Source: Dermatophagoides farinae (taxonomy: Eukaryota > Arthropoda > Arachnida > Sarcoptiformes > Pyroglyphidae). From it: a DNA stretch of 64,000 nucleotides. The notes beneath the pieces are model-generated. The model ran no database searches and was not told where the DNA came from. It saw nothing but the letters and a program-made list of their open reading frames with translations. Positions 1-14,675 of the stretch are shown piece after piece; positions within the stretch are counted from its first letter, which is position 1; every line of letters starts with the position of its first letter. Where the stretch lies: the NCBI RefSeq assembly GCF_024713945.1, contig NC_134680.1, positions 4,116,001-4,180,000 of the forward strand. The letters run 5' to 3'. The position numbers and the translations under genes were made by a program.

Positions 1-1393
1 CCCGTTACTTTAGCATTAAATTCATCATCATCATCATCACCATATGCGCCACAAGATTCTAGTCTGTTACAAACACAGCAATTATCACCTCATTCATCAT
101 GTGTTAGTCCAAGACCAAGCTCATCAGGTATTTTAATGCAAAAAATAAACCAATTTTTTTTCAAATTAATAATTTTTTTAATTACTTCATAAATTCAGGC
201 GCAATGATTGAAATGACAAGTACAACGGCGGCAACAACAAATGGTTATCATCATAATAATCATCATCAACATCATCAACATCATAATCGTTCATGTTCAC
301 CATCAACAATATCGGGTAATAGTTCACCAAATCTAATTAAATCATCATCATCATCAACGACGACGATGGGTAATCATAAATCAACAATTACCAATGGTAA
401 TAATCAAAATAATGGCAGTTCTGGTGGACAAACAACAAATAATAATAATAATAATCAGAATGGTCAGAATCGTGGTAATAATAATAATAATAATTTGTCA
501 AGAAATATTGTTATGCCAAATTCACATGCAAATATGGTTTGTTAAATAATAATTTTTAGCAAAAAATTGTCCATTTAACACATGTTTCTTTTTTGGATTT
601 TCAAACATTAGAATCATCGCAATCTAAATGGTACTCAGAATCTAACATCATTATCACAATCAATTCAGGGTATGGCTGCTGCTAGTGGTGGTTATCCGTC
701 CTCATTATCATCGTTTGGTTCAAGTTTGTATTTGATTTGATGAGAATATTCAAATGATAATGATAATTTTTTTGTAAAAAAAAATTCTAGATGATTTTCA
801 AAATATTAATCATGAATTGGCATTAGCAAGCTTTAATTCATCTGGTCTGTTGCCAAATTGGCCAACACATTCATTAGCAGGTGGTGGTGGTGGTGGTGGT
901 GGTTTAACGCCCTTAACCGCAAGTGGTGGTGGCATAAGTCTTTCACATCAAAGGTTAGATTTTAATTGATTTTTTTATAATTATTCAAATTTTATTTTTT
1001 TTTTTACAATTTCAAAGTTCATCATTACCACATTTATCTGTGAGTAGTAGTACACCGCCACCACCATCATCAACATCACCATTATCGATGAAGATAAAAA
1101 ATGAGCCAATATCACCTCAACGTGAACAACAATCAACAGCAACGAATGGTGGAGGTGGTGGTCAACAACAAAATAATCAAACAACAACAACACAATCATC
1201 AATAGTAGCAGCGGCAGCTGCAGCTGCAGCACATCAATTGGCAACATTACAACGGCCAACATCCGGTCATCTGTCACCGGGGCATCCATTAACACCATCA
1301 ACATCATCATCGCCCGATCCATCGGGTAGTTCCGATTATGAAGGACCTATTGGTAAACGGATACGTGTTACAGCCGATGGTTGGCCTGCTTGA
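1..1393 (+). CDS. Mef2: Mef2 transcription factor, C-terminal part (gene enters from left edge)
   Basis: Five exons splice in frame: 1-127, 199-536, 612-723, 791-953 and 1018-1393. They give 371 residues ending in a TGA; the first exon is cut by the window edge, so the MADS and MEF2 DNA-binding domains lie outside. Two seen motifs identify the family. 'IKNEPISPQRE' resembles the MEF2 sumoylation/phospho-switch motif (IKSEPxSPxR). The extreme C-terminus 'GKRIRVTADGWPA' resembles the vertebrate MEF2 ending (xKRMRLxxGW). Between them are Ser, His, Asn, Gly, Gln and Ala tracts typical of an activation region. Mef2 is a nuclear regulator of muscle differentiation. A polyadenylation signal AATAAA lies near 1633. 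The exact splicing of the low-complexity exons is inferred from GT..AG borders and reading phase. Confidence 0.85.
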
Positions 1394-3860
1394 TTGCTAT
1401 TATTATATCATTATTATTATTATTGTTGTTGTTGTTGTTGCTGTTGTTGTTTTTTTCTCATCATCATCATCCGTTATTGATAAAATCAATTTTCAATCAT
1501 CGTTCATCATCAACGATCATAATATTATTAAAATTAAAATAAAATCAATTAAACATATGATCATCATAATCCTGATCCTGATCAGCAAAAAAAACGGCTA
1601 CAATAATTATAGAAATAGATCGAAATGAAAATGAAAATAAATTTCGTGATATGAAATTTTGATTATTTTCTGAAATTAAAATGTCAATTCAATTCAATTC
1701 AATCATCGACCAGACACACACACAAAAACACAAAACAAACGATTCATTCACATTTTTAATATTATTGTCGATGATGATGATGATGATGATAATGATTATG
1801 AAACTTGAACGAAACAAACACACACACACACACAAAATCAGAAAATGAAATCCGGAATCAAGCAATTCTTTACTCACTCACTTACTCTCAATCTCTCGCC
1901 TGAATCTAATGTAAATGTAAATTATTATTATCATTCTTTTTTTGCTCTTTTCTTTTCATTCACTTTTTTTTGTTCATTTTTATTCTTCATTTTTTCCATT
2001 TTTTTTTTGCTAATTATTACCCATACACACACACACACACAAACACGTGTATTATGCATTTTTTTTATTATTTATTTCATCGTTGAAAAACAAAACAAAA
2101 AATTATTTTAATTAACAAAATCGAAAATTTAAATGTCACACCACATACCACACACACACACACAACAACAACAAAATGGATGTTTGTGTGTGTGTGTGTA
2201 TGTCATTGGACCACATATTGTTGATCCCTAATGATCATCGATGATGTTGAGAAACACTGATCGATCTCTTTTTTTTCGAAATTTTAAAATTCTCTTTTGT
2301 CACATCATTGTTCATCATCAAATTCATTCATTCAATTCATTTCAATTCACATATAGAATATTTCGATTGACAAATCAGGAATAATTATTATATTGAATAT
2401 TGATTATTGAAAAAAAAACATCCATGAAAAACAAAACAACAAATGACAATCCCATTTATCTGTCTGTGCATATTTTTTTTCTCTCTCTCTCTTTCTCTTT
2501 AACTTCACTTTCTTTTTACCACAACACACAGACACAAACATCCAAATCATATCCCAAATTATTATCATCAAATTGATCCATAAGCAACCAACCAACCACT
2601 ACACACCGTCCATCTTTTTGAATATTGATTATGTAATCTTTTTGTTTGTTATTTTTTTTCGATCCATTTTCGATTCATCATCATTTCTGATCATCGATCA
2701 TCATTACCATCACCACTCAGCTCTCTCTCTCTCTATCTCTCATTTTCCTCTTTCAATTTTATCTGTGTTTTTTTTCTGTCGCTTTTTTTTCTCAATCGAT
2801 ACCGATATATCGATTACAATCGATATATTCTAATTCTATATATAATAATAATAATATATATTCTAATTTTTTGAAGAAAAAAAAAAATCAATCCGCTATA
2901 TTTTTGTCTCTCTTTCTCTCTTTATATTCATTAATCACTGTTTTTTTCTGTTAATTTAATTACCCTAAAAATCGTGACTATATATGAAAAAAAACTGACA
3001 ACAAATTTCATTAATGAGATTCAAATTATCATCATTTTGACACACAAATAAATATATAATTAATATATAGTCTTAATTATAAAATGTAATCAATAAATAA
3101 AAGCATTTCTCGTTCAAACAAACAAACAAAAAAAAAACAAAAAATTCGTACAAAATCACATTTATTATTATTATTATCATTAAACACCATAATTGTCAAT
3201 GAATCAATCAATAAATGAAAAAAAAAGAGAAAATGCAAATCAAAAATGAAGATTTTTGGAATACTATGAATGGTAATCGAATGTGTATCCTGTAAGTTTT
3301 CGGTATTTTTTTTTATAAAAACAAAGAGCAAAGCAAAAAAATCATTTCGAATTTTTGATTTTCATTTCACACACACACACACATACATTGTGTGGCTATA
3401 TAATTTTCCTGGAATTGGAAATTTTTTAATTTTTTTTCCACATAATTTTTAAAACAACGATAAGAATGATGATGATAATAAACGTTTCAAAAACGAATCT
3501 CAGTGAATTCAAAGCTAGCTCCCTGTTGCCACTGCCCATACATCCATTTCATTTGATTTTCAGTTTATTTTTTTTTACGAAGAAAAAAACATTTTATTTT
3601 CCCGTATACCAAAAATGATGATCCACACATTTTGATAATAATGATGACTCAAATTCAAATCATGTAACGTTTGTTTGTCGCTTTGGTGTTGGTTTTCGTA
3701 TATACGACTACAGTATTTTTTCAAACACACACACACACATACACACACATAAATCTAGACAATTATCGAAAAGTTTGATGATTTTTAATCGGAATTTATA
3801 TTTCGATGGATGGATGTTGCTACCATTTTTGAATAAGTGCTGTGTGTGTATGAGAATGGT
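1394..3860. other. Mef2 3' region and intergenic spacer
   Basis: No convincing coding region. The first part should be Mef2 3' UTR. The rest is AT-rich with many (CA)n, (CT)n, (ATT)n and T-rich tracts; the translatable stretches are poly-Phe, poly-Ile or His/Thr runs from these simple repeats. From about 3750 the sequence begins to resemble the region upstream of the second nanos gene (from about 5745), marking the left part of the tandem duplication. Confidence 0.6.
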
Positions 3861-3890
3861 GTACCACTATTTCCACTTAATAGTGTACAT
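3861..3890 (+). promoter_or_regulatory. Palindromic upstream element of nanos copy A, followed by a TATA box
   Basis: An inverted repeat with arms CACTATT (3865-3871) and AATAGTG (3879-3885) around a 7-nt loop, flanked outside by GTAC on the left and TAC on the right. The same element with the same loop length recurs before the second nanos gene at 5864-5893. A TATA-like TATAAAAA sits at 3917-3924, about 30 bp further on, and the inferred start codon is at 4202. Conservation between copies suggests a functional promoter element; the binding factor is unknown. Confidence 0.55.
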
Positions 3891-4201
3891 GCATGTTGAT
3901 GAAATATTTTCGTTTGTATAAAAATGTATATGCATTATCATTGATTTGTTTCATTCATCAACAACTGTCCAATTAGGTTACTTCTTCATTTTGATTATAT
4001 TCTTCATTCGTTCAAAAAAAAATTCTATTTTTTTTTTTTTGTTTTATTTTTTCAACATTTAACTTTTTTTGTTTGTTTGTTTGTGGTTGCATGTTTTGCT
4101 GAGTCCAATTAATTTTCACATTTATCGAAACTTTAAGAATTTTGAATATTGATTTTTTTTTTCAAAGTGAATTTTGCTCGCCACCATTATCTGATTACAA
4201 A

Positions 4202-5284
4202 ATGACTGCAAGTGGTTTTCGATTTTATTATGGACTTTTACAATCACCATTATCTTCATCAACATTGTATTCATCAACTGCAAAATCAGCCGCAGTAACA
4301 TTAGCAGAAAACGCATTATTGCATCATCGAAATAATAATCATTTGAATTGTTCCATTAATATGGCAAACACTACTAATGATTTGTCATCACCAACATCAT
4401 CATTTATGGCTTCTTTGGAAAATCAAAATAATACAGATATATTTCGATTTGATAATCTAGGATCATTGGGTTATTCAACGAATCCATTACCATCAACTGT
4501 GGCTAAATCGATTTTAATGGTATTGAACGATCGAAATCCATTCATTAATCATCAATTTGGTGATGACTATGGTGAACGAAAATTAAATAGACGTAATAAT
4601 GGTAATTTTTATCATAATTTTGGCTGTAATTCATTTGAAAAGTATGTATGCATCACACACGAGAGTAGTAATAATAATTTATGTAATTAATTAATTAATA
4701 GTGATGGATCATCAATGATGTTGATGATGAAAAACTATAAATCACAAATACAAAATAAACAATATCGCAGCAGTAGCTTAAGCAAAAATGATCATCGAAA
4801 TGGTCGTATGGAATGTTCATTCTGTAAGAATCTACCACCTGAACGTGCTACCAATTACCGTGATCATTGGCTTAAAGATAATCAAAAACGTGTTACCTGT
4901 CCAATATTGCGTGCATATAATTGTCCAAATTGTAATAATGGTGGCGGGGATAACGCACATACTTTAATGCATTGTCCATTGAATCGTACAAATCTAGCAT
5001 ATGGTTTTTGCCATCGTGCCATTCAACAACAAAAACGACAAATGCAACGAAATCGTCGCATTAATAATTATCATGTACCGTACACTAGTAGTACTGCTGC
5101 TGATCATGATGATTCTGATGATTATGATGATTTTGGCCATAATAATGATAATAATAATTATGCAACATTTGTACAAAAATCACCAAATAGTAATGTATCA
5201 ACAATTTGGTCAACAATGTCGGAAGAATCAAATTCAAATTGGATTGATAGTGATGGCAATGGTGGTGGTGATTTTGAATGGTAA
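4202..5284 (+). CDS. nanos: Nanos-type RNA-binding zinc-finger protein, copy A
   Basis: Two exons, 4202-4641 and 4702-5284, joined in phase with a GTATGT donor, give 340 residues. The zf-nanos domain lies at about residues 183-241, with Cys185, Cys188, His202, Cys213 (first knuckle) and Cys221, Cys224, His233, Cys238 (second). Signature words are visible: 'CSFCKNLPPE', 'VTCPILRAYNCP', 'DNAHTLMHCPLN'. Nanos acts with Pumilio in the cytoplasm to repress target mRNAs and maintain germline identity. The N-terminus is low-complexity; the ~100-residue tail holds an acidic Asp/Asn run and a block nearly identical to copy B. The start is set by alignment with copy B (start 6233); an in-frame reading continues upstream to 4142 but lacks the similarity. 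A poly(A) signal AATAAA is at 5547-5552. Confidence 0.9.
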
Positions 5285-5424
5285 TCTATCTAGTTGTTGG
5301 TCAATAATTTTCCACTATTTTACTGATTTTGCATTGATATACTTTCATATATACATTTTTCGTGCCCTTTTAAATTTCATTTTTTTTAATATCAATTAGA
5401 AAACCAAACCATTATACTAATACA

Positions 5425-5490
5425 TACTGCTTTTGACCATGATGATTCTGGTCATAATAATGATAATAACTAATATTATGCAGCTTATTT
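5425..5490 (+). pseudogene. Fragment resembling the nanos tail-coding sequence
   Basis: The stretch from 'actgcttttgaccatgatga' onward resembles the end of nanos copy A exon 2 (about 5094-5168): the order CATGATGATTCTG, CATAATAATGATAATAA and TTATGCAGC is kept, but the sequence is shortened and the frame is interrupted. It lies in the 3' flank of copy A. It may be a remnant of an intermediate copy from the tandem duplication, or an unequal-exchange scar. The content is low-complexity, so chance similarity is a real alternative. Confidence 0.4.
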
Positions 5491-5863
5491 TCAATTCAAT
5501 TCGATAAATGTATTGATATATATTACATATATTTTATTCATAATATAATAAAATAAGTTTTAAATTCACGACAATCAATATTTTTTTTCAAATTTGTACA
5601 GCTTTTCCCTTTTTTTATGTTTTATCAATGGCTGTTTCTGAGGAGGATTCACACGTGTATTAACAATCCGAAGCTCCAAACGACATGGATAAAAATCAAT
5701 TTTTTGTTTTGTTTTGTTTCGAGTAACACAATTTCGAACAAACACACAAATCTAGCCAATTACCTAAAAGAAGGATTTTTTTTTTTTGATCGGACTTTAT
5801 CAAGATGGAAATAGCTTCCATTGAATATTAAAATATTTGTTGTGGTTTGTGGTTTGTGTGCAT

Positions 5864-5893
5864 GTACCACTATTTCTACATAATAGTGTACAT
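5864..5893 (+). promoter_or_regulatory. Palindromic upstream element of nanos copy B
   Basis: Arms CACTATT (5868-5874) and AATAGTG (5882-5888) around a 7-nt loop, matching the element at 3861-3890 at all but a few positions. It is followed by an AT-rich TATA-like run (about 5931-5943) and the copy B start codon at 6233. The distance from element to start codon is similar in the two copies (341 and 369 bp). Surrounding sequence is also partly conserved, consistent with one duplicated promoter. Confidence 0.55.
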
Positions 5894-6232
5894 GTATGTA
5901 GAGATATTTCGATGATGAAATATTTTTCGCTTTATATATATGTGCATTTTTATTCATTTTTATTCATTCACATCGACAACGATTCAATTACGTTATCGTC
6001 ATTTGGATAATTTAATTTAATTTTTTCTTTTTTTGATACATTTCTTTCAAATTTTCTACCATTTGATTGTGGCATTCTGTTTTTTGTTATTGACTGTGTG
6101 CTTGCATGTCCCTTTAAAAATTGGGTTACATTTAATTTTAATTTTTTCATTTGTTTTCATTGAACTTTAAAAATTTTGAATTTTAAATTTTATATATATA
6201 ATATCCATCATCCAATTGTATACAATTATTCA

Positions 6233-7331
6233 ATGGCTACAAATAGTCTTCGATCATATCTTGGTCGTTTACCATCATCATCATTGTATTCATCATCGAC
6301 TGTAAAATCAAGAGTAGAATCAGCAGCAGCAGCAGGAAAAACATTGCATCATCGTTCGAATTATTCAAAAATGGCAAATAATAATTTATCACCATTGATG
6401 AATTATTTGGATTACTATAATCAGAATAATTCAAATATATTTCAATCTGAAAATCTAGATCGATTCAATACTACAGTAGCAGCATCATCATCATTAGATT
6501 ATTGTTCATCACCATTGATGATGAATAATAATAATGGTCATAATCATAATTCAAAAAATCCATTACCATCACCAGTGGGTACATCATTTGAAATGATATG
6601 GAATGATGTTTATGGTATTCAACAACAACAAAAATCGGCTCCAAATCCATTCATTAACCGACAATTTAGTAATTATGGTGAACGAAAATTAGTTGGACGT
6701 AATGTTAATTATTATCAAATTTTTGGCTGGATTTCATCGGGAATGTATGTATAGAACACACACAACAAATTTGTTGTTATCAATGTATTTTAATAATAAT
6801 TATTATTGTGTAATTAATAGTGAAGGATCATCGATGATGTTGATGGTAAAGAATGATACATCACAATTACAAAATCAGCAATATCGCAGCAATAGTGGCA
6901 GTATCTTAAGCAAAAATGGTCATCGAAATGGTCGCATGGAATGTTCATTCTGTAAGAATCTACCACCTGAACGTGCTATTGATTATCGTGATCATTGGCT
7001 TAAAGATAATCAAAAACGTGTTACCTGTCCAATATTGCGGGCATATAATTGTCCAGATTGTAATAATGGTGGCGGGGATAACGCTCATACTAGAATTTAT
7101 TGTCCATTGAATCGTACAAAGCTACCACATGGTTTTCATCATCGTTCCATTCAAATGCAACAAAATCGCTTTTATCATGATTTTGGCCTTAATAATGAAA
7201 ATAATTATGCAGCATTTGTACGAAAATCACCAAATAGTAATGTATCAACAATTTGGTCAACAATGTCGGAAGAATCTAATTCAAATTGGATTGATAGTGA
7301 TGGCAATGGTGGTGGTGATCTTGGATGGTAA
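6233..7331 (+). CDS. nanos: Nanos-type RNA-binding zinc-finger protein, copy B
   Basis: Two exons, 6233-6744 and 6821-7331, give 340 residues, the same length as copy A, with the intron at the same place and phase. The zf-nanos domain has Cys212, Cys215, His229, Cys240, Cys248, Cys251, His260 and Cys265. As in copy A, each knuckle carries one more residue than the common C-x2-C-x12-H and C-x2-C-x7-H spacing (13 and 8 here). The N-terminus shares 'SSLYSSSTVKS'-like words with copy A but is otherwise diverged; zinc-finger and tail DNA are nearly identical. The pair is a tandem duplication in the same orientation. Expected role: translational repression in germ cells, possibly divided between copies. 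Confidence 0.9.
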
Positions 7332-8460
7332 TCTATCAGTTGTTGGTCAATAATTTTCCTCAATTTTACTGATTTTGCATTTCATACACTTTCATACACA
7401 TTTTTCGCGACTTTTTAAAATTCTTTTTTTTTAAATATCAATTAGAAAACCAAACCAAAAAACATTTTTTTCAACTTTTTAACAATTTTGTCATTTCGAA
7501 CAACAACAACAACAACTTGAAAACATTCGAAAAATATTTGCATCCATTTTTATTACATCGACACAACTGATACACACTGATCATTTTGCATAACATATTC
7601 TGTATCTCTTTTGTTTTCGATCTCTCCCATTTTCGTTCTTTATTTTCTTTCTTTTTACATCAAAAAACATCATTAACTTTGATTTATATATATATATACT
7701 AATATTATGATGATGAAATTAAAATCTAATTAAAATCTGTTACAATTTTATAACATCCATGATTTTTTTTCTATTTTTGTATATTTATTTCTCTTCGATG
7801 TTTTTTTTTTGGTCTCTCACCGATAGCCAAACGGGTATTTCTGTAAAAAACTAAATTTTTTTTTACTTTTTTTTTGCATTCTTATTTCAATCATCATCAT
7901 CATCATCATCATAATTATGAAATGAATAACACATTTTTTATAGAATAAATGTGAAAGAAAGCAAAAGGAGAAAAAAATGAATGAAAAATTTAAAAAAATA
8001 TATATGGTGGTGGTGGTGGTGGTAGTGGTTTAGAGGAGATGACAAAAAAGTGTCTGTAAAAAATGGTGAATATAATTGTTGTTGACATTATTTTATTTTT
8101 TTGTTGCTGTTGTTGTTGTTCTAATTCAAACGAAAAAAAAAACGAAAATTGAACATGATGAAAATGTGTTTGTGAGTGTGGATGAATTTGTGATGTAAAA
8201 AAAACCAATCTGGTCAAATATGAATTAAAATGAAAAAAATTTCGTAAATTGATTAAACAGCATATAATTGATGAATATTTTTGCATATCATTTATCATTT
8301 ATGTTTCTTTTGTGTGTGTGTGTGTTGTGTGTATGGTAAATGAGTGAACAAACAAATCAAATAAAAAAAAATGGTCATCATCAAATAATAAATTCGATAT
8401 ATTAGATGTGTGATAATCATCAGAATGATAAAATAATAGAATCAGAATCACAATGAATTA
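7332..8460. other. Intergenic: nanos copy B 3' flank and RCC1 3' flank (convergent)
   Basis: The first ~120 bp resemble the 3' flank of nanos copy A (the words 'atcaattagaaaaccaaacc' occur in both), so the duplication extends past the stop codons. The rest is simple-sequence DNA including (GGT)n near 8005-8030, (TTG)n near 8100-8120 and (GT)n near 8311-8325. No further gene is seen. Confidence 0.6.
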
Positions 8461-11400
8461 TTATTTTGATTCCATTAGTGAATCATCATCTTCATTAACA
8501 ATATCATCAATGATAATTGTACCAATCATTGCAGCCATTTGTGCACCAGTGGAAATCGATATGAAACGTGTACATTCAGCATACGGACCTTTCGTTATCT
8601 GTTTCGGTTCAAATAGATCAACATCAGCATCGGTACCAATCTGTAAGCCACCTTGTCCCCAACAATATAATCTACCCATTTCTGTAATGGCCATCGAACA
8701 AAAATCACCACAATCAATTTTGATAACACGTTCACCATTGAATATGGAGGATGGAATTTGTTTAAAATCACTAATACTTTTATCATTACTATTACATTGT
8801 TGAATAAAATCTTCGCCAAGACCTAATTTGCCATATAATGCCGAACCACAAGCATAAACATTACCATCACGATCCAATGCTAATGAATGTTGTTGGCCAT
8901 TAGATATTTGTTTACAATGAAAAGATAACGGTATACGTGTCGGTATCAATGTGAATAATGAATCGGAATTCAAACTATTCGCTTGTGATATGAAATTATT
9001 TTTCAATCCAAGTTGAAAATAATTATTAAGGCCCCAACCATAAAGATTGCCATCTGAGGATAAGGCAAATGAATTCCATTGTGATGCAAAAACATGATCA
9101 ATTCGTGCCTGTTCAGGTATCGATACCATTACGGGCCGTAAAAATTGGTCACGATTTGTATTGATTGAATTAAGCTCGGTCGATCCAATACGTCCTAATT
9201 GTCCTTTCGAACCTTCACCAAATGTTAATACACGTCCTTCATCCGTTAACAGTAGGATATGATGACATCCGGATGCAATATCAACAATTTTCACATCAAG
9301 TTCGATTGGTTTCGGTAATATAACAGGTAAATAATCTGAACAATTTGGTGATTTTTCACAATCAACAAATAGGCCAACTTTATCGGAATCATTTCTATCG
9401 ATTTTTAAAGACAATTAGAAAAACGTTAATAAAAATGATAATAAAAAAATGAGATTGCAAAAAAACTTACTTAAAATTTCCCCAAACATACACTTTACCA
9501 TCATCACATAATGCTGCCGAATGCATATCACCAGCCGATACTTTTACCACTTTTTTTGATTGTAATTCTTTTACCGGTAATGGACGGCCGGAAAGTTTTT
9601 CCTCAAATTCATCATCATCCACATCTAATTCATCCATATCATCATTATCACCACCATTGGTGGTGATCTTATCATTCAGATATTCTTCACGAGTAATTAT
9701 TCGACCAAGCACATAATCATCATTACAACCAAATGATAAAACTTGGCCATCCACGGTCAATGCTAACGTATGTAGGGCACCCATTGCCACCTGTTTGATT
9801 TTAAATGAACCGGTACGAACTTTTGCCGGCTGTGATCGTAATGTTTTACGACCACGAAAATGTATTTCACGTGGCCCTAATTCTTTGGATATTTGATCAC
9901 CCATGGTGAATAGATTACCAAAGTTTTGCAATTCAAATTTTGCTTTTTTCATTGCAATTTTTTCTTCCGAAATGTTAAAAGTATCATCAACTTTACGTTT
10001 TAAACCGCGATCATCATCATGTTCAGTGGTGATTGAGGATTGACCATTTGAATTGATTACATCAGCTACTTTTTTAACAGCAGGTGCATCATCATCCACA
10101 ACCGAAATTGATGGTTTTATATCGACATCGATTTTCGTTTGAACATCATTCGTAATGACGGTGGATGATTTGGATTCTTTAATCTCCATTTCTGGTTCAG
10201 TTTCTTTGACTACTGATGATGTAGATGATGGTGGTTTTATTTCGGTTTCTTGTTTTGTGATAGATTCTGAAATCGTGGATTGATGTTGTAAACTATCATC
10301 AGATTGAACCTCTTCGATGACAATAATTGTTGAATCCAAATCTGAATCTTGTTGTTTATTTTTTGATTCGACTGATGATGGCATCGAATGTGAATCATAG
10401 TCCACGATCATTTTTTCATCATCAATATTTACTACCGGTGTATCGGATGTTATCTCTTCATTATCATCCATATCGACTATTTCGAATGATACTTGTTTTT
10501 TTGGTATATCATGTGATTTTTTCTTCATTTCTGATTCCACTGATTCTGGACATGTTTTAATATCATTATCATTATCATCTGTTCCACTCCTTCCATCTTC
10601 TTTTGCTGCTTCTGTTGTTGTTGATGATGATGATTGTGAAATGGATGTTTCCGATTCGATTACTTCGACGATTTCATTTGCTTTATCAACAACTTCTGTA
10701 ATTTTCAAATCATTAGTTGGTTTTTGTTGTTCGGATTCAGATTGATCATGGCCATCTTTCTCGATTTCTACTTCTTGTTTTGGTTCCAATGGTTGTTGTT
10801 TATTATCAGGTTCATCTTCATTTGCTACTACCGAAACTTCTGGTTCAGTTTTTATTACATCATCATCCACAACAACAGTGTCAGCTGCTCGTCTGGAACG
10901 TGTAGATTTTCCTTTAGCTGTTCCGGCGGATTTCTCAGTTACGACTGGTTTGGGTTGCGGTGTTGGGAACAAAATTATTGGTTCCGGTATTTCGATTGCA
11001 GCCTGATCCATTGATTTAGCCAATTTTGTTATCGATTTTTTACTTTTTGATGACGCTGAAACTGGTTCTGATGGAGCATTTTCATGCTCTGTTCTGACTT
11101 CATCGACTATTTCGGTTTTGTTTCGCTGTTTTCGTGTATTACGTGTAGTTGTAGATTTAGCCACCGATTCAGTTAATGTTGCAGCAGCCGTTTTTCTTGT
11201 CGATCTAGGTCGCTCTTCCACAGCTATTTTGGATTCATTATCAACAACCTTTTCAACAGCTTCAGATTTAGATCTTACGGCACGTGTTGAACGTTTTTGA
11301 CTACTAGCAGTTGGTTTGGGTTTATTTTTGGTGGCCTTTTCCGTTTGTTGTTGTGATATCGATTTTGACTTTGATTGCTCCACATTTTGAGCTGATGAAT

Positions 11401-12232
11401 CTTTTGCCGTCGATTTTTTTGATACAGCAGATTTTGTTTCAGCTTTTATTGATTTTTTTTGTTTCGGTTTAACCACTACTGATGTTGTTTCTTCGGCAAT
11501 TTCTACATCAGTATCATTTTGTTCTTCATGAGAATGTTCGATTGATGGATGGGTCGATTCAACATTATCTTGTTTTTTAGAACGACTTCGAGATGATGAT
11601 GTCGGTTTTTTTATTGCTGTAGAGGATTTTGTTGTTGTTTTTCTTTTGGATACCGCCGCTGAAGACGATGAGGATGAAGATGCTGCTGTTGAAGCTCTTG
11701 TTGTTGTTCGTGAACTTCGTCGTAATGCAGGTTTTGTTTTGTCTTCTTCGACATTAATATCAACAGCAGATGTAGCAGCAGCAGTAGAAGCGTTGTCGAT
11801 TTCAAATTTAACATTTTTCGCTGATTTTTTCATTGATTTTTTTTCATCTACAATTGTAGAAGTGGATACGATATCAACAGAATTACTACTAGTAGTGGTG
11901 TTGGTCGATTCCGTTTGTTTTCGATTACCACGTGTTGTTCGTTTATTTGATTTATTATCAATTTGTGATTCAACTGGATCATTATTGTTATTGTTGGTGG
12001 TGTTCATCATCATTGTTGATGTCGCTTGATTAGTCCGACGTGTCGAACGTTTAGCCGATTTTGCTTGATGACGACGTTCATCATCACCATTATCAACAAC
12101 AATCGGTGTAGATTTTTTTCCCGCCATCACATGGCCAGTAGATTGTATTATTGCTTCGGAATTATCATCAATGGCCGGAGGATTGGTGTCGATAGCCGAC
12201 GATGCTTTACGTTTTCCGCTACGATTGACCAT
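8461..12232 (-). CDS. RCC1: RCC1-type Ran guanine-nucleotide exchange factor with ~765-residue N-terminal extension
   Basis: Two exons on the minus strand, 12232-9471 and 9394-8461, joined across a GTAAGT..AG intron, encode 1231 residues. The last ~465 residues form a seven-bladed RCC1 propeller: 'LFTMGDQISKELG' (blade 1), 'GALHTLALTVDGQVLSFG' (2), 'VSAGDMHSAALCDDGKVYVW' (3), then GCHHILLLTDEGRVLTFGEG, NLYGWGLNNYFQLG, GQQHSLALDRDGNVYACG and GRLYCWGQGG. RCC1 binds chromatin and charges Ran with GTP. Animal RCC1 proteins are usually 400-550 residues. Here residues 1-765 are a low-complexity, probably disordered region, Lys/Arg/Ser/Thr-rich first and then acidic, with 'KKSARR/TRRSxR'-like clusters that could bind DNA or serve as nuclear signals. 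An acidic insertion also occurs between blades 2 and 3. The long first exon is one open frame beginning with ATG. Confidence 0.85.
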
Positions 12233-13556
12233 TTTTTATGATGTTAGAATTTCTAAATAAACGAAGGAAAAAAAACAATTACAACAAGCCAAAATAATAT
12301 AGCAAAAAAAGAAATCGAACAAACCAAACCAAACTTCGAATTTTTTTTCACTGGTTCCTCTTTCACGTACAGACACACACCAATGAAATTGAATGCCAAA
12401 GAGAGAAAAACACGAAAAAAACGAAATTCGAATTAATCAATTGTCGATACGTTTGTGTGTGTGTGTGGCTATGCAACGAATAAAATGTAGGCAATATTCA
12501 AAATGTCAACGAGAAAAAAATTAAATTCTGTAAAAAAAAATTGAAAAATTAAAAATTTTGTATTTTAAAAGAAAAACATTTCAACATAAATGAAAAATCA
12601 ATAAACAAACAAAATGAAAGTTGAGACTGCTCACCACCACTGGTTTCGAATTTCACCAATGTTAATTTCTTGGTTTTATTCAAAATCAAATCTAACAACA
12701 ACAATGATAATTTGTCTTTAAAAGATTTGCTGATTAAATTAAACTACTATATCGATGATTGAAAAAAATCTGGTTTGAATCGATTGACAAAAAAATGAAT
12801 CAAACACTGACCCAAAAAAGAAGATATTAATTACATACGGTGGATTTCTGGATTATTCTCAAAATTCAACAACAACAACAATCAATCAATCAAAACAAAC
12901 ACACGATATATAGAAAAACAAACAAAATTAATTATTCTCGGCAAATACGTACCTTAGTGTACATTTTTTTTTTATTTTATTTAAGTTTGTCACATCATCA
13001 TCATGAGTTTATAATACAAAACACACATTCGATACAAACAATTTTCGAACACACCGACCGAAATCACACAGCTCGCCGGTATCAATGCGGTTGTTGATGT
13101 CACATTTACATACGTAACATCATTTTATATTGATGGTTACAAAAATAACATTAACGTTAATAGTATACTACTACTAAAAAACGTAAACGAAAATTTTACA
13201 TTATGACCAATGCCATTATTATTTTCGTTTTCATAACCGCATGTATTTACACGCACACTATACTAATGCCATCTATCGATTTCGAATTTTGAACAATTTA
13301 AACAATCAAATACCGGATATAAATAGTCATTGGATTGGATAAAAATAGTCATTGAAAAATATTGAGATTGAGAAAGTTTATAATTACCGCGTTTTTTTCT
13401 CTGATTTCATCATCATCATCATCATCATTGTTGTTGTCACAAAAATTATCTCAATGTCAAAATTAAGTTTTTTTTCAACTGTAAGTAAGAGAAAGTAACC
13501 ATGACTTTTTTTCTTTTTAATCTTTTTTTTCATTTGTTCTATCACATAGTTTGATA
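12233..13556. promoter_or_regulatory. Divergent intergenic region between RCC1 and the trihelix gene
   Basis: About 1.3 kb of AT-rich DNA between two head-to-head genes, expected to hold both promoters and 5' UTR sequence. A short direct repeat 'aaatagtcattg' occurs near 13322 and 13345. A pyrimidine-rich tract ending in CACATAG just before 13550 could be a 5' UTR splice acceptor for the trihelix gene. No coding region seen. Confidence 0.45.
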
Positions 13557-14675
13557 ATGAAAAATAGAAACGAAAATTTTCTCCCACTTCGTCAGATTGA
13601 ATGCTCAAAATCAATTATGATGGATGTATCTGATCATCACCATCATTTGCATATCAATCAACATAATCCTGATCAACATCAACAATATTCAGGATTTATT
13701 TTTGAAGATTTGGATGCAGCATTTCTTTCGGTACCAAATAATAATGATGAAGACGACGATGATGATGGATGTTGTGGTACAGGTGGTGGTGAAGATAAAG
13801 TTACATTGATCAAAGATGATGATGATGGACAAACATACAGTATTATGAATGGTGGTGATCTCCCATCATCATCATCATCAGCAACAATATCCGTGAAAAA
13901 AGATTATAAATGGAGCCCGAATGAAACTATATATATGATTACATCATGGGAGAAATATTCGAAAAATGCGTCCGGAAAAACATCAACATATAATAAATGG
14001 ATTTATATGAATATACAACAAGATCTACAATCATCGGGTTATGATCGTAATCTTGAACAGATACGACGTAAAATTTCACAGCTAAAAAGTCGTTATTTCA
14101 AAGAAATTCGTCAATCACCGAATAACGTTGAAAATTCCACGACAAATTGGGAATATTTTAAACAATTGGATCGTATTCTCCATCATCAATATCATGGTGA
14201 CAACAAAAACATTAATGATCAACAATCATCGTCATCATCATCATATCTAATGAATAATAGTGAAAATTATCCGATAGAATCACCAAAACCACCAACAGAA
14301 TCGAATAAACGTATACGAACGATAAATTATGATGATAATAATCATAATGATGATGAATCAAATGATGATAGTAGTAGTGTTAGTGTTGGACAAAATAGTA
14401 TAACGGCCGGTGATTCAACAACAACAACAACAACAGCCAATTCATTCGAAGATCGTATAATGAAAATGATGAAAACACAGTATAGAAATCAACAACAACA
14501 ATGGAAACGAATTTCACAACAGATTGAACAAAATCGACAATCGATTGATTTATTACAACAAACAATAAATCGTTTACAGGAACAATTACAGAATCAACAG
14601 AATGGCCAGTGGTATAATAATGGAATGAGTATGCAGAAAAATTGGAATTATGATTATAATAATCAATATTTTTGA
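13557..14675 (+). CDS. Trihelix / Myb-SANT-like DNA-binding protein
   Basis: A single exon of 372 residues from the ATG at 13557 (in-frame ATGs at 13617 and 13620 are alternatives). Residues ~116-210 fit a trihelix Myb/SANT-like domain: a first Trp in 'KWSPNE', then 'MITSWEKYS', 'NKWIYMNIQQDL', 'LEQIRRKISQLKSRYFKEI' and a last Trp in 'NWEYFKQLDRIL'. This is the pattern of the Myb_DNA-bind_4 family, likely a nuclear sequence-specific regulator. Before it are His-rich and Asp-rich stretches; after it an acidic Ser-rich linker and a Gln-rich probable coiled coil at ~296-352 ('QQTINRLQEQLQNQQ') that could mediate dimerisation. The target genes and the specific orthologue are not recognised. Confidence 0.7.
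   Translation: MKNRNENFLPLRQIECSKSIMMDVSDHHHHLHINQHNPDQHQQYSGFIFEDLDAAFLSVPNNNDEDDDDDGCCGTGGGEDKVTLIKDDDDGQTYSIMNGGDLPSSSSSATISVKKDYKWSPNETIYMITSWEKYSKNASGKTSTYNKWIYMNIQQDLQSSGYDRNLEQIRRKISQLKSRYFKEIRQSPNNVENSTTNWEYFKQLDRILHHQYHGDNKNINDQQSSSSSSYLMNNSENYPIESPKPPTESNKRIRTINYDDNNHNDDESNDDSSSVSVGQNSITAGDSTTTTTTANSFEDRIMKMMKTQYRNQQQQWKRISQQIEQNRQSIDLLQQTINRLQEQLQNQQNGQWYNNGMSMQKNWNYDYNNQYF

Follow-up and report, generated by a model that had tools for sequence, protein, structure and literature searches.

A tandem pair of diverged nanos genes, and a third nanos gene elsewhere, in the genome of the mite Dermatophagoides farinae

We report that a whole nanos gene, together with its presumed promoter, has been duplicated in tandem in the mite Dermatophagoides farinae. 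The two copies stand head to tail within a 64,000-nucleotide stretch of contig NC_134680.1 (G000:C4:4116001-4180000, hereafter the window, whose own positions are given unless another contig or locus is named), and the duplicated unit spans about 1.7 kb. The Nanos proteins, germ-line regulators of wide distribution, act as mRNA-binding repressors with Pumilio, and crystal structures of the fly protein have shown how it recognizes RNA. A third nanos gene, with canonical zinc fingers, lies on a different contig. From comparison of these genes we lean, with some reserve, towards a reading in which duplication was followed by a division of labor between the copies and not by a mere doubling of dose. 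A canonical Nanos and a duplicated, altered pair in one genome constitute a natural experiment on what the fingers tolerate, and one that would bear on chelicerate germ-cell specification, for which passages of a 2026 review cite marker data in spiders and in the mite Tetranychus (PMC13120685). The event itself is well supported yet ordinary, gene duplication with fast divergence being a known kind of gene-family expansion.

Gene structure and extent of the duplication

Both genes lie on the forward strand and consist of two exons totaling 340 codons, with an intron at the identical place and in the same phase. Copy 1 has a first exon at 4202..4641, which by eye encodes a low-complexity N-terminal region, a 60-nucleotide GT-AG intron at 4642..4701, and a second exon at 4702..5284 encoding zinc fingers from residue 185 followed by a C-terminal tail. 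In the gene model of copy 2, exon 1 occupies 6233..6744, the GT-AG intron (76 nucleotides) 6745..6820, and exon 2 6821..7331, with zinc fingers from residue 212 and then the tail. Because the exon lengths differ (440 and 583 nucleotides in copy 1, 512 and 511 in copy 2), the exact match in codon number is a coincidence. Each product matches positions 1-53 of the 54 in the zf-nanos profile PF05741, with 59.3 bits for copy 1 and 59.6 bits for copy 2 against a gathering cut-off of 27 bits. These models agree with a first-pass annotation of the window, which had described two complete head-to-tail nanos genes of 340 residues sharing one intron position.

Homology extends well beyond the coding regions. 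The 5' flank of copy 1 (3713..4201) is homologous to that of copy 2 (5711..6232), the blastn match running from 3713-4157 against 5711-6191 (E 7e-36), and the 3' flank of copy 1 (5285..5416) aligns globally with that of copy 2 (7332..7461), the similarity stopping at about 5411-5416 and 7457-7461. Some 450-490 bp upstream and 130 bp downstream are therefore shared, much as the first-pass annotation had proposed (about 450 bp upstream and 120 bp past the stops). Its duplication with flanks likewise stands, and its unit size of about 2 kb does not: that figure includes a 0.3-kb spacer, the homologous unit being about 1.7 kb and the repeat spacing 2003-2128 bp. Coding and flanking homology in head-to-tail order identify the arrangement as a tandem duplication.

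The degree of similarity varies strongly along the unit. In global alignment the 5' flanks (3750-4201 against 5744-6232) are identical at 286 of 432 positions (66%). Shuffled-flank controls (30 shuffles by base of one flank, under slightly simpler alignment settings) averaged 48% and never exceeded 52%. Exon 1 is 75% identical at the DNA level (297/395), the intron 68% (41/60), exon 2 91% (458/502), and the 3' flank 86% (112/130). Judged from these alignments, the copies are much more alike than chance allows and much less alike than alleles would be.

Coding constraint and uneven divergence

In a DNA alignment made ignoring the protein, all 14 gaps within the coding sequence are multiples of three, compared with 5 of 17 outside it (5/13 in the 5' flank, 0/1 in the intron, 0/3 in the 3' flank); trinucleotide repeats in exon 1 may favor in-frame gaps, and exon 2 alone still gives 4/4. 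The ratio of nonsynonymous to synonymous substitution rates (dN/dS) between the copies is 0.98 overall, 1.45 in exon 1 (bootstrap 95% interval 0.92-2.45), 0.52 in exon 2 (0.29-1.05), and 0.33 across copy 1 residues 149-242 (0.14-0.79). The nonsynonymous rate shifts after residue 146, which is the exon boundary (reached in 0 of 2000 permutations). As far as a comparison of two sequences goes, this shows both copies evolving as coding sequence, their open frames kept under coding constraint.

The gap and rate results therefore describe an N-terminal region that diverges fast and a finger domain that is held. Only 64 of 131 aligned exon 1 residues are identical between the copies. When the genome was searched with exon 1 of copy 2, the sole match was that exon itself (1 match, 4 candidates scored), and the failure of copy 1 exon 1 to be reported fits this divergence.

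A separate observation concerns the end of the pair. Of the last 44 aligned residues (5147-5281 and approximately 7197-7328), 39 are identical, with almost no silent change (dS 0.04). This segment ends in an acidic, tryptophan-containing tail, of which none was seen in the third nanos gene; it may serve as a binding motif or mark a tract of conversion.

Conversion could also have acted on a larger scale. If gene conversion homogenized the finger and 3' part, the duplication would be older than the fingers suggest, a history compatible with a division of labor between the copies. The 3' flanks are significantly more alike than the 5' flanks (Fisher p 5e-6 from the identities above), and the proportion of silent differences (pS) is 0.10 in the fingers and 0.09 at the C-terminus, as against 0.23 in exon 1 and 0.34 in the stretch preceding the fingers. 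Constraint on the 3' untranslated region would give the same pattern, however. In the silent sites a searched change point was not significant (129/2000 permutations), the contrast of exon 1 with exon 2 gave 97/2000, and a fixed boundary that gave a Fisher p of 0.008 had been picked after looking. The patterns are suggestive only, and we regard conversion as a real chance but a minority one.

Zinc fingers and the RNA pocket

Both copies carry two CCHC knuckles with all eight ligands present, as located by regular expression, and their fingers are identical at 49 of 55 residues. The typical Nanos spacing is CX2CX12HX10C - CX2CX7HX4C, a pattern that is not a Pfam criterion. The pair departs from it, with X13 and X8 in both copies and hence one extra residue per finger (copy 1 reads X13/X10/X7/X8); in alignment, the third nanos gene and the fly and zebrafish Nanos proteins all have X12 and X7. 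Because of this spacing we call the two copies Nanos-family proteins with derived fingers. Structure prediction for the copy 2 fingers from a single sequence gave a model too poor to be used (mean predicted local distance difference test score 43.6, predicted template modeling score 0.28).

Passages of the report on the Drosophila Nanos-Pumilio-RNA structure (PMC4995099) state that F321, T366, and Y369 hold the base -1U, that alanine at any one of them abrogates repression, and that K368Q lowers repression to 32% from 75%. Counted from F321 in the structure chain, the fly positions 366, 368, and 369 land on Thr, Lys, and Tyr as published. At the positions aligned with 321/366/368/369, copy 1 has F,T,M,H, copy 2 has F,T,I,Y, and the third gene has F,T,S,Y, the pocket segment being Thr-Leu-Met-His-Cys, Thr-Arg-Ile-Tyr-Cys, and Thr-Arg-Ser-Tyr-Cys, respectively. 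By alignment, then, copy 2 keeps all three -1U pocket residues and copy 1 two of three, with His in place of Tyr369. Three of the six finger differences between the copies are the adjacent ones between the Thr and the Cys of this segment.

A third nanos gene and a Pumilio-type partner

Searches of the whole genome (62.4 Mb in 22 contigs) with PF05741 returned five matches, three of them above the cut-off: the pair and C7:559061-559219, which is the strongest (82-84 bits). This gene with canonical fingers overturns the earlier count of two nanos copies instead of one. It has 135 codons in one open frame (L003:1384-1791), and an upstream exon is possible. Across 53 finger residues, copy 1 is identical to it at 20 (38%) and copy 2 at 23 (43%); against fly Nanos the values are 25 (47%) and 26 (49%), and the third gene itself is 49% identical to the fly protein. 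At so low an identity, the pair either did not arise recently from the C7 gene or has evolved very fast. All seven matches to PUF repeats fall within 1.1 kb on contig C2, so the genome holds at least one Pumilio-type gene. The best of seven PF02221 matches, on contig C1, is a relative of the group-2 mite allergens; it resembles Der p 2 and Der f 2 (about 108 bits) and is clearly not identical to them.

Genes with RCC1 repeats occur near both nanos loci. One lies downstream of the pair on the reverse strand (8461-12232); the other, an RCC1-BTB gene (L026:2-1525), lies upstream of the C7 gene, the two being separated by a CD36-family gene. Their proximity is probably a coincidence, because only the gene at the C7 locus has the BTB domain. 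Also upstream of the third nanos is an element of about 165 bp (L026:3860-4024) with 21-nucleotide inverted ends that are 90% complementary, resembling a small DNA-transposon relic.

Upstream dyad and spacer

A dyad, CACTATT-n7-AATAGTG, is present upstream of copy 1 (3865..3885) and of copy 2 (5868..5888), about 315-365 bp before the start codon in both. It overlaps the best-conserved 30 columns of the 5' flank (29/30 identical, a level that 34 of 5000 permutations reach) and may be a control site shared by the pair. As a genome-wide motif it was rejected, occurring at four places in the genome, two of which are the nanos pair, against five for the reversed control. Folded as an RNA hairpin, the copy 1 dyad gave z -1.34 and the copy 2 dyad -3.55. 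An RNA-family search of positions 1-14000 gave six matches, every one below its gathering score, and a scan with a bacterial promoter model, ill-suited to this genome, found 3 candidates against 3.5 expected.

The 0.3-kb spacer contains on the reverse strand, antisense to nanos, a kinase-like exon fragment (5558..5658) identical at 81 of 101 positions to C4:4005158-4005254 (E 6e-21). The matching sequence, some 116 kb distant on this contig, is part of a coding exon whose gene is weakly kinase-like: its frame scores 20.5 bits with the Pkinase profile, under the cut-off of 31.7. A short partial copy of exon 2 on the forward strand (5439..5482) matches copy 1 at 39 of 44 positions (E 9e-11 with the low-complexity filter off); as this is simple sequence the match is weak and may mean little. 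Filler of this kind would be consistent with a duplication that arose by template switching, or with DNA inserted afterwards.

Discussion

The history we favor begins with tandem duplication of the 1.7-kb unit, presumed promoter included, while the canonical-finger nanos was kept elsewhere. Each copy would encode an mRNA-binding repressor partnering Pumilio in the germ line or embryo. The N-terminal effector part and the promoter would then have drifted apart, leaving the copies with different partners or timing. Copy 1, without the uracil-pocket Tyr, would bind Nanos sites more weakly or prefer others, and copy 2 and the third gene would retain the usual recognition. We infer two working repressors whose effector regions are diverging; perhaps RNA recognition is altered in copy 1. 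A division of labor is plausible because exon 1 has strongly diverged and one pocket residue differs.

Several points weigh against this history. The exon 1 dN/dS is not different from 1 and the overall value is 0.98, so the divergence may reflect relaxed constraint; moreover, a pairwise comparison cannot assign constraint to one copy. The run of three adjacent residue changes is only mildly unusual: clustering as tight arose in 3336 of 100000 permutations of residues, and in 5876 of 100000 when four changes in nine nucleotides were scored. Because of this we keep a functional switch of copy 1 as a hypothesis. In copy 1 the His might still stack in part as Tyr does. Lastly, a Lys368 equivalent is absent from all three nanos genes, which means that the mite system may rely on different contacts.

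The copies might instead do the same job, the pair providing dose or redundancy and the divergence being neutral drift in a disordered N-terminus. The highly similar fingers, the conserved C-terminal residues with their low dS, and an exon 1 dN/dS not different from 1 all speak for this. The 5' flanks, only 66% identical, do not, nor does the exchange of Tyr for His at a site on which repression depends in Drosophila. The divergence makes a simple dose effect less probable, and we judge such redundancy unlikely but far from negligible.

A bolder scenario strikes us as unlikely. The pair would represent a second, mite-lineage Nanos class, marked by the extra residue in each finger and duplicated in tandem, in which the RNA specificity of copy 1 has been switched through uracil-pocket residues; three Nanos proteins would then address different mRNA sets with one Pumilio.

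Decay of one copy, most likely copy 1, into a pseudogene would account for the His at the Tyr369-equivalent site and for the overall dN/dS. It is improbable in view of the consistently in-frame gaps and the intact splice sites and stop, and residues 149-242 are constrained, though pairwise data cannot tell in which copy. Adjoining similar genes are a usual sign of alleles or haplotigs misplaced in tandem by assembly. Here such an artefact is scarcely credible: the flanks and first exons differ far more than alleles would, the spacer is unrelated DNA containing the kinase-exon fragment, and of the 10 places listed as matching 3700-7500 a single one was full-length.

Comparison with known nanos systems

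Our literature searches, made outside subscription journals, listed no paper on a nanos pair in mites. For D. pteronyssinus, passages of a report name one nanos-type gene, female-enriched (PMC12105342); the label used there, 'nanos-type kinases' (derpt19g00270), looks like a slip, Nanos being no kinase. The Sarcoptes scabiei gene Ss-Nan (GenBank KPM04769.1) is given in passages of PMC8777771 as single-copy by OrthoMCL, with transcripts in eggs at 186 times the female level and an 84.1% knock-down in eggs that left hatching unchanged (p 0.9889). Pattern scans of other genome contigs (32 matches) and viral contigs (67 matches), none from relatives of this genome, yielded no nanos.

An assignment of Ss-Nan as a relative of the C7 gene was withdrawn, the signals from its published primers being in conflict. 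In one open frame, the double-stranded RNA (dsRNA) primers encode PSKPIP and ICDAT, compared with PSEPIY and FCGAT in the C7 gene, at 64 versus 63 codons apart (0/1000 shuffles). In a second open frame they give CHRNLYP, resembling copy 1 just past the fingers (98/1000 shuffles). The quantitative PCR primers (SMYCGFC, RTTLNG) score 35 with the pair versus 25 with the C7 gene, scores reached by 8 (copy 1), 2 (copy 2), and 46 (C7) of 1000 shuffles each. Those primers exclude the dsRNA target, as the same paper states (PMC8777771), and the C7 reading would break that. At the DNA level, the best primer match to any of the three nanos genes was 13/21, not above chance. If Ss-Nan belongs to the class of the pair, then Sarcoptes lacks the tandem arrangement of two copies.

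Multiple nanos genes are already known in Lepidoptera, and passages of two reports describe four homologs in Bombyx mori (M, O, P, and N) with their functions divided up (PMC13120685, PMC3654919). D. farinae resembles B. mori in having several nanos genes in one arthropod; the silkworm case is in an insect lineage and presumably independent of the mite pair. Within the mite genome, the third nanos shares the PF05741 family with the pair and differs in its canonical X12/X7 spacing. Like Drosophila Nanos (PDB 5kl1, 5kl8), the pair has tandem CCHC fingers with equivalents of Phe321 and Thr366; unlike it, both copies have an extra residue in each finger and are without a Lys368 equivalent, and copy 1 is also without the equivalent of Tyr369.

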